Below, piece by piece: positions 39,237-45,535 of a DNA stretch of 64,000 nt. A model generated the notes under the pieces. It made no database searches. It was not told the DNA's origin and worked only from the letters and a program-made list of their open reading frames with translations. The position numbers were made by a program, and so were the translations under genes. Position 1 is the first letter of the stretch. Each line of letters opens with the position of its first letter. This DNA is from Candidatus Moanabacter tarae. GTDB lineage: Bacteria > Verrucomicrobiota > Verrucomicrobiia > Opitutales > UBA2987. The stretch is from NCBI GenBank assembly GCA_003226295.1, contig CP029803.1, positions 2,547,001-2,611,000 of the forward strand, in the 5' to 3' direction.

Positions 39237-40583
39237 TTATCCCTCCAACTCAATCCTTGTCAGATTATTCCTCAAAATTGGTCCATACTCTGTTTTCCCA
39301 GGACAGACAAACGTACATAAAGACAAATCTTCCTCCTCTAGCTCCAGGCATCCGAGTGCTTGGGCCATTTCGGTGTCGCCGACAATTAATGCCCTCAAAA
39401 GGAATGTAGATTCTATATCCAGAGGCATCACTTTTTCGTACATGCCGATCGGTACCATAGTACGCTTACTTCCTTCGGTCGAGGTTGTAAAGGGGAAGAG
39501 CTTTCCTTTCAACAGTGCCGAAATGAAGGTAGGCTTCACAGAAAACTTGTCCAAACCAGGACTCTGCCAGCCTAGGAATACCCGCTCTCGGCCTTCTAGG
39601 AGTGCTGATACTTGAAGATGATACCGGCCGAGAAATGCAAATGGGCCCTCAGCCTTTCGGCCGGATAGAACCGAACCAGATATAATCCGGTTCTGGCCAT
39701 TTTTGAGTTCGGCTGATGTCAAACTATCAGTGCTGGCTCCTAGCCGTGTCTTTATAATGCGTGGTCTTTCAACAACCGGACCCGCCAGAGAAATTATCCT
39801 CTCTACATTGAGTTTCCCAGTGGTGAACAGTGCGCCGATCGCTAGCACGTCCTGGTAGTTAAGAAACCAGTTCGTCTTATTCGCATTCACCGGATCTAGG
39901 AAGTGCATATGTGTTCCCGTCAATCCGGCGGGATGAGGGCCATGGAATTCATGGACATTGATATCACTGAGATCATTTCCATTGAAAGGAATCCCTGCCC
40001 CATGGCAGAGATAGGTATTCCCTTCCGTAAGTTTCGAGACTACCTTGAGCCCGATTGTAAAATCGCTTTCCCGCCCTCGTATAACCACCGCCGGATCGAC
40101 CGCGAGGGGATTCGAGTCCATAGCGTTGACAAAGATAGAATTTGGCTGAGTGTTGGGCGCAGGAACCTTGCTGTAAGGACGGGTTCGTAGTGCTGTCCAA
40201 AGTCCCGAATCAATCAGGTTCTCTTTTACCTGCTCCAATGTCAGATCGGGAATCTGATCATCTGAATAGGACGCAAAAGACTCTGCCTCCTCTCCAGTAA
40301 TATTGATTACCACAGACTGTAGCATTCGCTGCGCTCCCCGGTTAATAGCGACTACCTCGCCATTGGCTGGGGAGGTATATTTCACCCCAGGTGTTTTCTT
40401 ATCGGTGAAAATTACCTGCCCCACTGTCACCGAATCTCCCACAGCAACTTCCATAGTCGGCTTCAAGCCGATAGAGTCTGTCCCGATAAGGGCAACTGAA
40501 CCAACGTCTTTAGACTCGATTAAGGTTTTATCTGGTTCTCCCGTTATAGGAAGATCTAATCCCTTTTTGATTTGGTGTAACAT
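39237..40583 (-). CDS. nqrA: Na+-translocating NADH:quinone reductase subunit A
   Basis: A 448-residue soluble subunit that faces the cytoplasm and helps form the quinone site. It begins [13 protein letters not shown]. It shows the biotinyl-like barrel segment [18 protein letters not shown] and the middle Rossmann-like region with [14 protein letters not shown] and [10 protein letters not shown]. It leads the nqr operon; a promoter-like sequence is visible 30 bases upstream. NqrA-F together couple NADH oxidation to sodium export. Confidence 0.97.
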
Positions 40584-40642: not shown

Positions 40643-40798
40643 TTTTAGCCGTAAGCAATGCTTTTTTCTGAATAAGCGAATGTTCCCAGTCCAATGTTCG
40701 CATAAAGTTGGATCGGTTAGGAATCGGGGCCCATTCGGCTGCGTTTTTTCTCGTGTCACTCGACTATCTCAATTGAAATTGACTCTGGACCAAAACCT

Positions 40799-40886
40799 GG
40801 AGAGGTGACAGAGCGGCCGATTGTGCACGATTGGAAATCGTGTGGGCCCCAAAAGGGTCCCGCGGGTTCGAATCCCGCCCTCTCCG
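40799..40886 (+). tRNA. tRNA-Ser (anticodon GGA)
   Basis: An 88-base class II tRNA. The acceptor GGAGAGG pairs with CCTCTCC plus discriminator G. The anticodon stem CACGA/TCGTG encloses the loop TTGGAAA (anticodon GGA, reading UCC/UCU). A long variable arm GGGCCCC-aaaa-GGGTCCC and the T-arm GCGGGTTCGAATCCCGC follow. CCA is not encoded. A run of six T starts right after the discriminator and may serve as terminator. It is divergent from nqrA. Confidence 0.95.
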
Positions 40887-41204
40887 TTTTTTCGACTGCT
40901 TTGACCAAGTGACTTTCTTCCCGGTCCCGATGAAGAAAATGGCAACTTGGCTAATGACGCTGTAAAATCCAGACATTTTCCAATTTGTAGGAGCGGACAT
41001 TTTGTCAGCACTTTTGGCACAGCTGAGTGCTTAAATGGAATTGAGTAATCATAAATTTGACCAGAGAGCAGATAACGACCGTAGAATGGATATCCCTAAG
41101 TGGACCGATCGCAATCGAGGGTTATTGTGAAAGGGGGATATTATCTAGCAAGAGAAAATTTGTTAGAGATATAGTGTTTTTATACTAAGGCCGATTTCAC
41201 AGGG
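40887..41204. other. 318-bp spacer after tRNA-Ser
   Basis: AT-rich sequence without a credible gene. No copy of the tRNA 3' end was found here or further on, so there is no visible attachment site. It holds the 3' side of the dioxygenase gene. Confidence 0.4.
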
Positions 41205-42137
41205 TTATGAGGGCTGTTTCTGTTCCTTAAGGACTGAACGGTCGTTCCATTTCCCCATTGGGAACTCTCGGTTATCCGTCGGGGTATTGAGTTTGCGATA
41301 ACGGGGACCCCGTGTCCAGTGGGATTTTCCGTGAAATAGGGTTTTAAGTTGAGGAGGGATTTCTTTCTTAAAGGTATTGCTTAGAGTACCTCTGTCCCAG
41401 TAGGGGAAAAGGGTAGAGCCGTATCCAGTTATGATGATAACTCGTTCGTTGTTGGAACAGATATGTCCAGTGGCGTGAATTAGGGTTTCGCTGAACAGGA
41501 GGGTGGAACCAGCGGGAGCGATCACCTGGTGAATTAGGGAGCGGTCTTGGTAGGCGGCGGCTATGATATCTTCGGTCGGAGCATCAATCTTGTGACTACC
41601 GGCTATGGCTACAGTACCTCCGTCATCGGGCCCGAGATCAGTTAGATTGGTCAAGGTTTTTACGAAATTACAGTGGAAAAGACCATTTTTTGTATGGGTA
41701 CCAAATGGAATGTCCGTACCTCGATGGAATCCGTAAGGGGACGACGCATTTAAATCTTCGTGAGGGATGCGGCTATTGATGTGGGCATTCATTTCTACGA
41801 TTCGCGCTTCTCCTCCGATCAGTTCTTCTGCCATAGAAACCAGAATAGGGTGAGTGGCGTAGGAGGTGACAATAGGATCAGACTCGACAATGTTGGCCAT
41901 GAAATGGTGATGGGGGTCGTTCTTAAGCAAGAACGCTTCATGTCCCCCGGGGCCTGGCGACGAAGACTTAGGTCGTCGAGTCAGTTCATATCGTAGACGG
42001 TAAAGGGACTCCTTAAGCTTTTCCACATCTTCTGGGGCCAGTGTGTCTTGGATGACTACGTAGCCGAATGTGTCCAGATAGTAGCGCTGAGCTGAAGTGA
42101 GAGCAGGGAAGGGGCGCTCAAAGGTTGGAGTCGACAT
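41205..42137 (-). CDS. phytanoyl-CoA dioxygenase (PhyH) family protein
   Basis: A 310-residue Fe(II)/2-oxoglutarate oxygenase-type protein. N-terminal YLDTFGYVVIQDTL is the usual PhyH opening. The core holds YGFHRGTDIPFG (first metal His; the acidic partner could be the Asp three residues later), DDGGTVAIAGSHK and SETLIHATGH (distal His). The ATG at 42137 starts the conserved region; the frame upstream to 42278 is not family-like. PhyH proteins hydroxylate varied small molecules, so the substrate is unknown. It lies downstream of the amidotransferase-like gene on the same strand, 392 bp apart. Confidence 0.8.
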   Translation of the reverse strand: MSTPTFERPFPALTSAQRYYLDTFGYVVIQDTLAPEDVEKLKESLYRLRYELTRRPKSSSPGPGGHEAFLLKNDPHHHFMANIVESDPIVTSYATHPILVSMAEELIGGEARIVEMNAHINSRIPHEDLNASSPYGFHRGTDIPFGTHTKNGLFHCNFVKTLTNLTDLGPDDGGTVAIAGSHKIDAPTEDIIAAAYQDRSLIHQVIAPAGSTLLFSETLIHATGHICSNNERVIIITGYGSTLFPYWDRGTLSNTFKKEIPPQLKTLFHGKSHWTRGPRYRKLNTPTDNREFPMGKWNDRSVLKEQKQPS

Positions 42138-42529
42138 TTCAAACCAACTTGTAGGATGCCATCCCGGAAAAAGGCAAGACGATCCTGCAGGCGAGAGAGA
42201 AAAGTGGTGATTTTTAGGAAGGAGGGATAGGAGAGGGCATATTGGGAGGTCCCTAGAGATGTGTAAATTTCGGTGCAATAGAAGGCCCTAGGAAGTAAGG
42301 GATCAGGAAGGTAATTCGAGACCAAAATTCTAGATCTTTCATCTTAGTTCTTTGTCTATCCCTCATGTTTCTTTTAATTCTGCCGAATTCAAAGGACTTC
42401 TAATCTCGCTTCTTTCCTGTAAGACTTTCCGTGATGCAAACGTCTAAGTCGAGCCTTAGGAGGGCTTCCCGGTTGATCCACGAAGTGCATTCGGTGAGTG
42501 CAGCATCCAATCCTTTTGGGAATCGAATT
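42138..42529. other. 392-bp spacer between the synthetase-like and PhyH genes
   Basis: Part of it is an open extension of the dioxygenase frame with no homology. It probably carries the PhyH promoter. No repeat or RNA was recognised. Confidence 0.4.
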
Positions 42530-44260
42530 CTACTGGTGGCGGATGGCCCTTGAGTCTTCTAAAAGGATTGTATTCATTCTACTGATAATCAATATGCGAA
42601 ATGCCAAGAGATTGTGGTTTAAGCGAGGTGAATATGCGTGATCGAGAACGGCGTTAAGAAGACTCCTTGGCATGATTCTCTTGGCGATGTCTTCAAATAT
42701 AGAAGACTTTAGGGTTTTTGTTCCCATTGCTTGTCGATCTGTTTTCAAGCCCTTCCTCAGGTAGTTAAGAAAACTCGTCGGAAAGAGGTCTCGGGCACAG
42801 CTGGAGGAAAGCTCTTCTCTAAGTATCTCTTCAATATCACTGCTGGCCAACACGTTTCTGGGTGATGCGATTGAAGAACGCGTTGCATATGCTACCTGCG
42901 GTCCAAGTGAACTGACGATCTTCCTGTATAGGAATTTATCAGTTCGGAGATGGTCCGGTTGTCTTCTTACCTCGAGAAGAACTTTCCTGGATAACCAAGG
43001 GTTTACTATTTCCACGTATGGGAGCTTCAGATCGGACAGAGAGGACAATATAGAGGGTAATCGGAATCCGTGATAGAGTTTATCGCGCCATTGGGCCAAG
43101 CTCTCGCCTGGACTACGGAGGAGGTTTTGGGGGAGCTCCTGGTCCGCAAATCCGAACCCCTGGTAGTTTCTTAGATTCGCGAAATCTGTACAGAAAGCGC
43201 ATCCTATGCTATGGCGCACTGTAAGCGGAGAGGAAACTTCTAACCATCCAAAACCCTCGTCACCTCGGATGACTCCTTGAACCCCTGTTTCGAATAACAT
43301 TTTCCAAATTGTGAATCCATCCATATACGCGGAAATATGATCGATGCGACCTTCGCCTAGCGAAAGAAACCTGTTAATTATATTATGTGCAGGTTCCTCA
43401 GATGAATCCGTATGGTAGAACTGGTGGCAGACTTTGAGAGAATGGGCTAGTTTACTTGCAACGTACGCATCAGTTCTCCTAAGGTGTATAGACGATTTTA
43501 AGCCCCATGTGATTGTCTTCAATTCTTCAAGATTTCTGCCAGTTTGCTGAAGCAAAGAGAGAAGGCCTCTGCTGTCGTAACCGCCAGAGAGCGGCAATAT
43601 CCAGGTCGACAAATCCAGTTTCAACGATTCGATTGTTTCGACCATTGCCTCTCTTAACGTACGCTCTTGCTGATTGTCCGACTTGTCCGATATAGTGAAA
43701 TCTGAAGTATTTGATTTGCTCGCGATAGACCATTTTTTCTTATCGAGAAGAACAGCAGAGTCAGGCGGGATGCTATTGAGTTTGCTATGCCATGAAAGGC
43801 AGGGGCCGAGTGAACCGGTGGATAACATCCATGGAATCACCCTTTCATCGAATTCAAAACTGCCTAGTAACATCGTGATCGCTCTCTGCGAGGTCGAAGA
43901 TATGAATATCTCTTGGTCCAGGTAGTACCAGATCGTTCTCGAACCTGCTGGATCGGTTAGGATTTCAAGAGATTCTCCTCCGTTACGGAAGAGGGCAAAT
44001 GAGCCATCAGGGAATGCGCTAGAAGGTTTCCACCAATCGCTATATTCTCCGAAAAGTTTTCCAAGAAGTAAGCTATTACCTTTTTGCAGGATCGAATCAG
44101 TTGGGTTCGTTACACCATATGCAATATCTTCGCGAACTAGGATTTTTGACGGATGAGAGATGATGTTGTCCGGAGTCAATCGATGGCAGATCGTTTCCAG
44201 TCGATTCGCAATGGAGATAGAATTAGGGTAACGGTAGCAGACGTAAATTACCTTAGACAT
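42530..44260 (-). CDS. asparagine-synthase-like protein without glutaminase cysteine
   Basis: A 576-residue protein with the two-domain plan of class B asparagine synthetases. The N-terminal half keeps Ntn-like segments (PDGSFALFR, LTDPAGSRTIWYY, ISSTSQRAITMLLGS, NSIPPDSAVLLD). However, it starts MSKVIYVC instead of MC, so the Cys2 nucleophile that releases ammonia from glutamine is absent. The C-terminal half has the PP-loop LPLSGGYDSRGLLSLL (about residue 225) and the RGDEGFGW acid motif. ATP-dependent activation of a carboxylate is therefore likely, with free ammonia or an internal amine as nucleophile, as in beta-lactam synthetase-like enzymes. The product is unknown. Confidence 0.8.
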   Translation of the reverse strand: MSKVIYVCYRYPNSISIANRLETICHRLTPDNIISHPSKILVREDIAYGVTNPTDSILQKGNSLLLGKLFGEYSDWWKPSSAFPDGSFALFRNGGESLEILTDPAGSRTIWYYLDQEIFISSTSQRAITMLLGSFEFDERVIPWMLSTGSLGPCLSWHSKLNSIPPDSAVLLDKKKWSIASKSNTSDFTISDKSDNQQERTLREAMVETIESLKLDLSTWILPLSGGYDSRGLLSLLQQTGRNLEELKTITWGLKSSIHLRRTDAYVASKLAHSLKVCHQFYHTDSSEEPAHNIINRFLSLGEGRIDHISAYMDGFTIWKMLFETGVQGVIRGDEGFGWLEVSSPLTVRHSIGCAFCTDFANLRNYQGFGFADQELPQNLLRSPGESLAQWRDKLYHGFRLPSILSSLSDLKLPYVEIVNPWLSRKVLLEVRRQPDHLRTDKFLYRKIVSSLGPQVAYATRSSIASPRNVLASSDIEEILREELSSSCARDLFPTSFLNYLRKGLKTDRQAMGTKTLKSSIFEDIAKRIMPRSLLNAVLDHAYSPRLNHNLLAFRILIISRMNTILLEDSRAIRHQ

Positions 44261-44659
44261 CCAGATATTCCCAAAAAATTGCCCGGGTTGTTGCTACATC
44301 GGTTCACCGCAATTCCTCTAATATTTACAGAGGCTTACGTAGAGATGTATTGGATTTCCTTATGCCTTCCGGATTCATCTGATTCCAATTCTATGATCAT
44401 AATCTTTAATCTCTCTCAAAACTTTCTTATTTCTAACTGAAACAAATGATGCTTTACGAAAGGAACCCTTTGCTCCCGGTACAGTTCTACAAATTATAAA
44501 GCAGGGACGGTTGCCAAATGGAAACCCAGCTTGTTCATAACAGTTGAGTGATCGCCCCTAAAATCACGGCTGTATTCAATATGAAACTATAAAAAATTCG
44601 CGATTTATTTCGTAGCCTCGCAATCTTTCAGAAACCTAAATACTGCAGGCAATAACAGA
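44261..44659. other. 399-bp spacer between sucD and the synthetase-like gene
   Basis: AT-rich sequence with no gene, clear hairpin or repeat recognised. It must contain the promoter for the minus-strand synthetase-like gene. Confidence 0.4.
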
Positions 44660-45535
44660 TTAGCCTGGATAAATCTTCAGTAAGGTGTCAGCAATTTCCG
44701 ATGGCGTTTCTGCGACAGCAATGCCGGCATTCTGGAGGGCCTCGACTTTAGCCTGGGCAGTGCCGCTGCCGCCCGAGACGATTGCGCCGGCGTGGCCCAT
44801 GCGTCGGCCTGGAGGGGCCGTCATTCCAGCGATAAAAGCTGCGACTGGCTTATCTACATTTTCCCCGATGAAGGCAGCGGCATCTTCTTCGGCATTCCCA
44901 CCGATTTCACCTATCATAATGATTGCTTCGGTATCGGGATCTTCGTTGAAAAGGCGGAGGGCGTCGGTATGGGTGGTGCCAATGATAGGATCACCACCGA
45001 TGCCTATGCAGGTACTTTGTCCGTGTCCGCGACTGGTAAGTTGCCAGACTGCTTCGTAGGTCAGAGTTCCAGAACGGGAGACCACTCCTATTTTACCGGG
45101 GTGGTGGATGTAACCGGGCATGATACCCATCTTACACTCTCCAGGAGTGATGATACCGGGGCAGTTAGGCCCGATTAGGCGAGTACTGCTTCGAGACAAC
45201 TTTGATTTTATTATCATCATGTCTCGCACTGGTATTCCTTCGGTTATGCAGACCACAAGATCGATGCTTGCATCAATCGCTTCAAGAATGGAGTCGCTTG
45301 CGAATGGGGGGGGTACAAAGATCAGCGATGTGTTAGCGCCTTCCTGGAGAACTGCATCATGAACAGAATCGAATATGGGTATGGAATTGTCAAATTTCTG
45401 CCCCGCCTTTCCTGGGGTGACACCGGCTACGATTGTTGAGGCATATTCGATACACTGACGGGAGTGGAAGGCCCCGGTCTTCCCAGTGATGCCTTGGACA
45501 ACCGCGCGCGTTTCTTTGCTGACCAGAATACTCAT
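44660..45535 (-). CDS. sucD: succinyl-CoA synthetase (ADP/GDP-forming) alpha subunit
   Basis: A 291-residue alpha subunit. It shows the CoA-binding Rossmann region [14 protein letters not shown], the [18 protein letters not shown] segment, and the phosphorylated His in [17 protein letters not shown] (about residue 249). It converts succinyl-CoA to succinate with substrate-level phosphorylation, together with SucC encoded 141 bp upstream. It is the last gene of the minus-strand run. Confidence 0.96.

Follow-up and report, generated by a model that had tools for sequence, protein, structure and literature searches.

A glutaminase-less AsnB-like protein family with a member in 'Candidatus Moanabacter tarae' and its possible role in amide formation on surface polymers

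Results

The locus and its genes

We analyzed a 64,000-nucleotide stretch (C1:2547001-2611000; hereafter, the window) of the genome of 'Candidatus Moanabacter tarae' (G000), which is a single contig of 2,633,965 bases with 2,237 coding sequences according to the genome description (PMC6256433). The main subject was P0001, a putative synthetase resembling the asparagine synthetase AsnB, whose gene lies beside that of a PhyH-family protein, P0002 (Table 1). A first-pass annotation of this DNA had described P0001 as a 576-residue protein with an intact SGGYDS PP-loop and no N-terminal cysteine, followed on the same strand by a PhyH-type gene and located close to a tRNA gene between large spacers, and all of these features were confirmed. 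Position 2 of P0001 is serine, and just 11 codons separate its ATG from the in-frame stop upstream, with no start codon among them, so that no longer start with a hidden cysteine is available. An alternative reading of P0002 has 357 residues and begins at an upstream TTG. The tRNA, PhyH, synthetase, and sucD genes are separated by gaps of 317, 392, and 399 bases, respectively, and the third-position G+C content of the gene pair resembles that of the neighboring genes. No glycan gene was recognized near P0001 by eye or, over the 64 kb, with a profile for family-4 glycosyltransferases (GT4).

Table 1. Features of the locus and of the phage-borne relative (window coordinates, except where a locus is named)
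Feature	Position	Strand	Description
Synthetase P0001	42530..44260	-	Open reading frame, 576 residues, AsnB-like, without Cys
PP-loop SGGYDS of P0001	43571..43588	-	ATP site, residues 225-230
GDE of P0001	43256..43264	-	Residues 333-335; counterpart of the canonical AsnB GDE loop in the alignment
Lys442 of P0001	42935..42937	-	Candidate catalytic Lys, on the model of AsnB/beta-lactam synthetase
PhyH-family protein P0002	41205..42137	-	Open reading frame, 310 residues
Gap between synthetase and PhyH genes	42138..42529	.	392 bases
tRNA-Ser(GGA)	40798..40887	+	
nqrA	39237-40583		Flanks the pair; gene name by eye
sucD	44660-45535		Flanks the pair; gene name by eye
Phage family member	L050:10001-11713		IMGVR_UViG_3300011497_000002

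Predicted fold of P0001

The AlphaFold model of P0001 had a predicted local distance difference test score (pLDDT) of 89.9 and a predicted template modeling score of 0.91, and residues 514-518 formed the single segment with a pLDDT below 50. The top Foldseek matches were carbapenam synthetase, beta-lactam synthetase, TsnB9, and AsnB, with E values of 4e-15 to 1e-14. With VIA-align, the best match was the hydroxyamidotransferase TsnB9 (7ylz; Z 25.4, root-mean-square deviation 3.5, 494 residues aligned), which belongs to what we take to be the trichostatin pathway and which aligned over nearly the full length, although it shares 12% identity with P0001. AsnB (1ct9_D) gave a Z of 24.3 with a root-mean-square deviation of 3.5 over 424 residues, and beta-lactam synthetase, human asparagine synthetase, and carbapenam synthetase gave Z values of 22.7-23.3, 22.1-22.5, and 21.0, respectively. 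After these superfamily matches (Z 21-25, 395-494 residues), the next listed row had a Z of only 10.7. The structural alignment with AsnB begins with residue 2 of the model against residue 1 of AsnB.

The model thus predicts that P0001 has the two-domain fold of the AsnB/beta-lactam-synthetase superfamily with a PP-loop ATP site, in agreement with the first-pass view of a Cys-less enzyme of this type. The predicted fold is common to the whole superfamily and cannot by itself pick among the chemistries of its members.

Relatives and distribution

As the sole query, P0001 retrieved no relatives from genome contigs, viral contigs, or phages, and one haloarchaeal plasmid gene with 23.5% identity. 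The family was reached when a small mixed alignment was used for a pattern search of 84,980 species genomes, which yielded 20 loci, comprising 18 with essentially full-length relatives of 34-46% identity and two with weak ones. The 18 relatives, selected by the fit of their DNA to two peptide patterns and hence no census, were from Sphingobacteriales, Pseudozobellia, Methylobacter, a gammaproteobacterium, Chromohalobacter (two), Roseovarius, Myxococcales (two), and Acidobacteriota (nine, mostly Geothrix); they span four phyla, and the host's phylum is not among them. Later plasmid and phage searches with other members gave no matches.

In 372 genomes drawn from the host's order, P0001 was the only clear member detected, and the single-protein and profile searches otherwise gave three and two weak partial matches, respectively. 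No synthetase was found in 386 other genomes of the phylum, a sample overlapping that of the order, except for one weak match. In a phylogenetic tree, 21 family rows formed one clade (100/100) against two distant outgroup proteins. The tree gave P0001 no firm place within this clade, with long branches flagged by the program, and no donor is therefore named. The patchy distribution and the lone copy in the order support acquisition of the synthetase itself, not of a tRNA-targeted island. They suggest that the copy in the window was probably acquired horizontally, and in this respect the earlier proposal of an acquired locus was supported for the synthetase.

Sequence features of the family

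In the Pfam search, P0001 scored 14.6 bits against Asn_synthase (PF00733), below the gathering cut-off of 21, and would therefore be missed by annotation based on PF00733; a PF00733 search of its own genome gave no match at E 1e-3. Of 10 other members that were scanned one by one, eight cleared the cut-off, with 22-33 bits over only 60-90 residues. Because of this low score, the assignment of P0001 rests on NCBIfam similarity, the relatives, and the fold. The strongest NCBIfam match of P0001 was NF033561, the albusnodin/ikarugamycin-family lasso-peptide macrolactam cyclase (E 7.3e-10, 38.1 bits against a cut-off of 300). AsnB (TIGR01536) followed with an E value of 2.3e-5 and 23.6 bits against a cut-off of 267.1, and none of the 10 other members cleared any NCBIfam cut-off. 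As a separate observation, genome G000 had no PF00733 asparagine synthetase at E 1e-3, and its asparagine is presumably supplied via another route.

The family alignment had 20 rows, namely P0001 and 19 copies that came from 17 loci, all of the 18 except L042; counts over 21 members additionally include the phage copy described below. Two canonical AsnB proteins (from L015 and a second AsnB in the L030 cluster) served as controls. P0001 shares the two-domain fold, the PP-loop, and the GDE loop with AsnB, whereas the features of the AsnB glutaminase half were absent: position 2 was Ser in 19 members, Ala in two, and Cys in none, and NGEIYN-, RGPD-, and SDTE-type motifs were each found in 0 of 21 members, while both controls had Cys2 and all three motifs. 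A loose RL[SA][IV] pattern occurred in three of the 21 members. The PP-loop was present in all 21, with its S, G, G, Y, and D the same in every one of the 20 rows and the last S conserved in 19 of them. In the GDE loop, G and D were invariant in the 20 rows and E was found in 18. Residues R332, W252, H279, D307, R439, and K442 were likewise invariant in all 20 rows, and Lys442 is assumed to have a catalytic role by analogy with AsnB and beta-lactam synthetase. The profile-profile alignment with canonical AsnB covered residues 81-338 only (probability 95.5, E 1.5e-8), leaving the first 80 residues of P0001 unaligned by sequence.

GDE.F was conserved in 19 of 21 members, and both exceptions were tandem copies at L027, where three family members lie in tandem in one polysaccharide cluster (L027:8001-14317). 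These two copies have Val in place of the GDE-loop Glu and may therefore be altered or non-catalytic paralogues.

Judging from these sequence comparisons, P0001 and its relatives constitute a distinct family, and no model specific to it was found. In a literature search on AsnB-like enzymes in connection with surface sugars, lasso cyclases, exopolysaccharide, and phage tails, the passages retrieved gave no description of it.

Glycan gene neighborhoods of the relatives

Eight Pfam-confirmed genes, taken from five of the loci, provided the GT4 profile, which was searched over flanks of up to 8 kb. A GT4 gene was found near 14 of the 18 relatives, five of these being training loci that match by construction and nine being independent. 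Homologues in polysaccharide clusters, a comparison proposed in the first-pass annotation, were thus identified. Pfam scans of 26 selected neighbors (L027, L030, L033, L035, and L038) revealed polysaccharide export proteins, Polysacc_synt- and MurJ-type flippases, UDP-sugar dehydrogenase, NeuB, DegT aminotransferase, O-antigen ligase, and sugar transferases. At seven Acidobacteriota loci (L036, L038-L041, L043, and L044), the synthetase gene overlapped the preceding GT4 gene by 13 bases. The weak relatives in the phylum (L014, L016, and L017) and on the haloarchaeal plasmid (L018) were found beside glycosyltransferase-like open reading frames, as judged by eye, or near an annotated flippase.

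A family member in a phage

Among 2.9 million viral contigs scanned, one carried a relative (Table 1). This protein is full-length, and its identity to P0001 is 38% over 581 columns. Its gene is preceded by genes for Dit, a prophage-endopeptidase tail protein, a 56-residue open reading frame, and a 991-residue protein with tail-fibre matches, and is followed by genes for a 141-residue protein, a holin, and an M15-type endolysin, with all genes from Dit to the endolysin on one strand. Further out are an FtsK/SpoIIIE-like gene on the opposite strand and a partition gene. The GT4 profile had no match at this locus. Three queries against 50,697 phage records gave no family match, and one phage contig does not show phage-borne spread of the family.

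The PhyH-family neighbor

P0002 was assigned to the PhyH family with 53 bits against a PF05721 gathering score of 22, and its nearest solved structures were the oxidases 4xcb (E 5.8e-13) and 4xc9 (E 9e-13), the former of which we take to be HygX, an oxidase of aminoglycoside biosynthesis. Its own genome contained 84 PF05721 matches at E 1e-3, corresponding to 3.75% of 2,237 genes. P0002 was 24-26% identical to its three best paralogues. In the column of the HxD metal motif it has HRG, in contrast to HQD in seven of 10 aligned paralogues; the other three likewise lacked the aligned Asp (HGG, HSG, and HCA). A first-look survey of PhyH over 273 genomes of the order, which gave candidates only with about 10 scored per genome, indicated 109 candidates in G016 (2.1 Mb, another family) and 14-23 in the sister genus.

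A PhyH profile was built from 12 loci of the same genome, L002 (the window's PhyH) to L013, the open reading frame of L013 having been wrongly chosen. This profile recovered its own training members and detected nothing at E 1 among 1327 open reading frames of L014-L046. With Pfam, 15 PhyH matches were found in the host genomes of seven of the 18 relatives, many of which are draft genomes. These matches lay on contigs differing in length from the locus contigs, except in Methylobacter, where the match was about 1.7 Mb from the family gene.

The tRNA gene and the nqrA-sucD interval

The first-pass annotation had regarded the locus beside the tRNA gene as a possible acquired element and the pair as an interruption of conserved nqr and suc blocks, and neither insertion at the tRNA nor such an interruption was supported. 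When the 3' end of tRNA-Ser was searched in the 64 kb with up to three mismatches, the single match was the tRNA itself. Among the open reading frames of the interval, no integrase was recognized by eye, and just the two genes looked credible. The longest direct repeats in 40700-45000 were of 23 bases at 74-78% identity, with one exact repeat of 14 bases, and promoter and terminator scans gave numbers close to those from shuffled sequences (7 versus 5.9 and 4 versus 4.0, respectively). A tRNA-integrated island was rejected on the basis of the unrepeated tRNA end, the lack of a recognized integrase, and a third-position G+C content like that of the neighbors.

The nqrA-sucD comparison was based on two readable sister genomes of the host's family (G001 and G002), G003 being fragmented. 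In both, nqrA and sucD were on different contigs; nqrA adjoined a MoaB-like gene, and sucD adjoined CheA-like or cysN-like genes (names by eye). The downstream neighbor of sucD differed in six of six relatives read (L019, L021, and L023-L026), and nqrA was found in four of 35 genomes, G000 included. Because the two genes are apart in the sister genomes and have varied neighbors, no ancestral nqrA-sucD unit that the pair could interrupt was seen.

Discussion

We propose, with a probability of about 0.5, that P0001 is a synthetase that forms amides at the expense of ATP. Its acid substrate would be a carboxylate, probably on a surface polymer or on a precursor of such a polymer, and an amine or ammonia would take the place of glutamine. 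P0001 would be an enzyme of the AsnB/beta-lactam-synthetase fold that lost its glutaminase. Given the fold and the conserved residues, its C-terminal half would bind ATP at the PP-loop and adenylate the carboxylate, and the absence of Cys and of the glutamine-site motifs suggests that an amine-bearing co-substrate or free ammonia would then attack to form the amide. Since most of the relatives found are in glycan clusters and one is in a phage tail-to-lysis region, the carboxylate would most likely belong to a surface polysaccharide, to its sugar precursor, or to a different envelope polymer. The copy in the window, probably horizontally acquired, would work apart from any local glycan cluster.

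Several observations weigh against this proposal. No GT4 gene was found in the flanks of four of the 18 relatives (L028, L029, L031 on a 3.1-kb contig, and L032) or in the 64-kb window around P0001. The top NCBIfam match of P0001 and of nine of the 10 other members is a lasso-peptide macrolactam cyclase and not a sugar enzyme. Ser2 could in principle be an N-terminal nucleophile, yet this position is Ala in two members. In addition, the ordinary third-position G+C content of the P0001 gene shows no sign of recent transfer.

A broader extension of the proposal, which we put forward as tentative, is that this discrete glutaminase-less family is dedicated to secondary amides on surface polymers, such as those linking a uronic acid to an amino acid or an amino sugar, and spreads across phyla. 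It would also occur in a phage of low-G+C DNA, where the copy in the tail-to-lysis region may modify the host envelope or the receptor-binding apparatus of the virion.

It is also conceivable, though unlikely, that P0001 converts envelope carboxylates, of uronic acid or peptidoglycan diaminopimelate, to primary amides, drawing on ammonia that is either free or released by a separate glutaminase. WbpS-type enzymes use glutamine. The uronamide synthases WbpS, WbqG, and PGN_1234 are described in PMC7468200 as AsnB-type enzymes of surface sugar pathways, with WbpS making a uronamide, and in these respects they parallel the P0001 relatives. AsnB1 is tied to meso-diaminopimelate amidation by a title in the reference list of PMC4033162, and genes for a holin and an endolysin are found near the phage copy. 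On the other hand, PMC7468200 terms the three synthases amidotransferases, and TIGR03108, the model for the WbpS type according to that paper, was not listed in the NCBIfam scans of P0001 (E up to 5), of the 20 rows (E 0.01), or of the 10 members, although HMMER filters may drop weak matches. A location in a surface-glycan cluster, which would be expected of the WbpS type, is a feature of the relatives with GT4 neighbors and not of P0001.

That P0001 instead makes a small molecule by forming an intramolecular amide (lactam), with no link to the cell surface, appears improbable. Beta-lactam and carbapenam synthetases are AsnB relatives without glutaminase activity, and beta-lactam synthetase forms its lactam with a Tyr-Glu catalytic dyad. 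Their fold resembles that of P0001 (Z 21-23), Foldseek placed them first, narrowly, and GT4 genes were lacking beside four relatives and the window's copy. However, they are 12-15% identical to P0001, VIA-align matched TsnB9 and AsnB at least as well, most relatives are near glycosyltransferases, and no other biosynthetic gene was recognized by eye beside P0001.

The first-pass annotation had combined the synthetase and the PhyH oxygenase into a two-gene modification module, and this now seems highly improbable. The genes are adjacent on one strand, and the nearest solved relatives of P0002 are the oxidases 4xcb and 4xc9; against this, the genes are 392 bases apart, PhyH was found in the flanks of 0 of the 18 relatives, and none of the PhyH matches in their host genomes was nearby, so that the co-occurrence that a module predicts was not seen among them. 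With 84 matches in 2,237 genes, a PhyH gene is expected as one of the two flanking genes with a chance of about 7%. The PhyH gene is most likely beside the synthetase by chance, and would belong, independently of it, to a large set of local paralogues.

A lasso-type macrolactam cyclase acting on a short ribosomal precursor is very improbable, since NF033561, although it was the best NCBIfam match for P0001 and was matched by all 20 rows (best E 1.5e-13), was far under its cut-off for P0001 and gave 17-50 bits for the 10 other members scanned singly, the leader peptidase PF13471 had 0 matches at E 1e-3 in G000 (nine candidates scored), and inspection of the neighborhoods by eye revealed no lasso genes.

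The results for P0002 illustrate that a large local PhyH expansion can by chance yield a tempting "module" story, which has been corrected here for the window. As for the proposed action of P0001 on surface polymers, the coupling of amines to surface carboxylates alters charge, recognition by the immune system or by phages, and sensitivity to lysins. To our knowledge, little has been learned about enzymes that form secondary amides on polysaccharides. The family of P0001 is coherent, had no specific model among those found, and is present in named strains of Geothrix, Chromohalobacter, and Methylobacter and on one phage contig.

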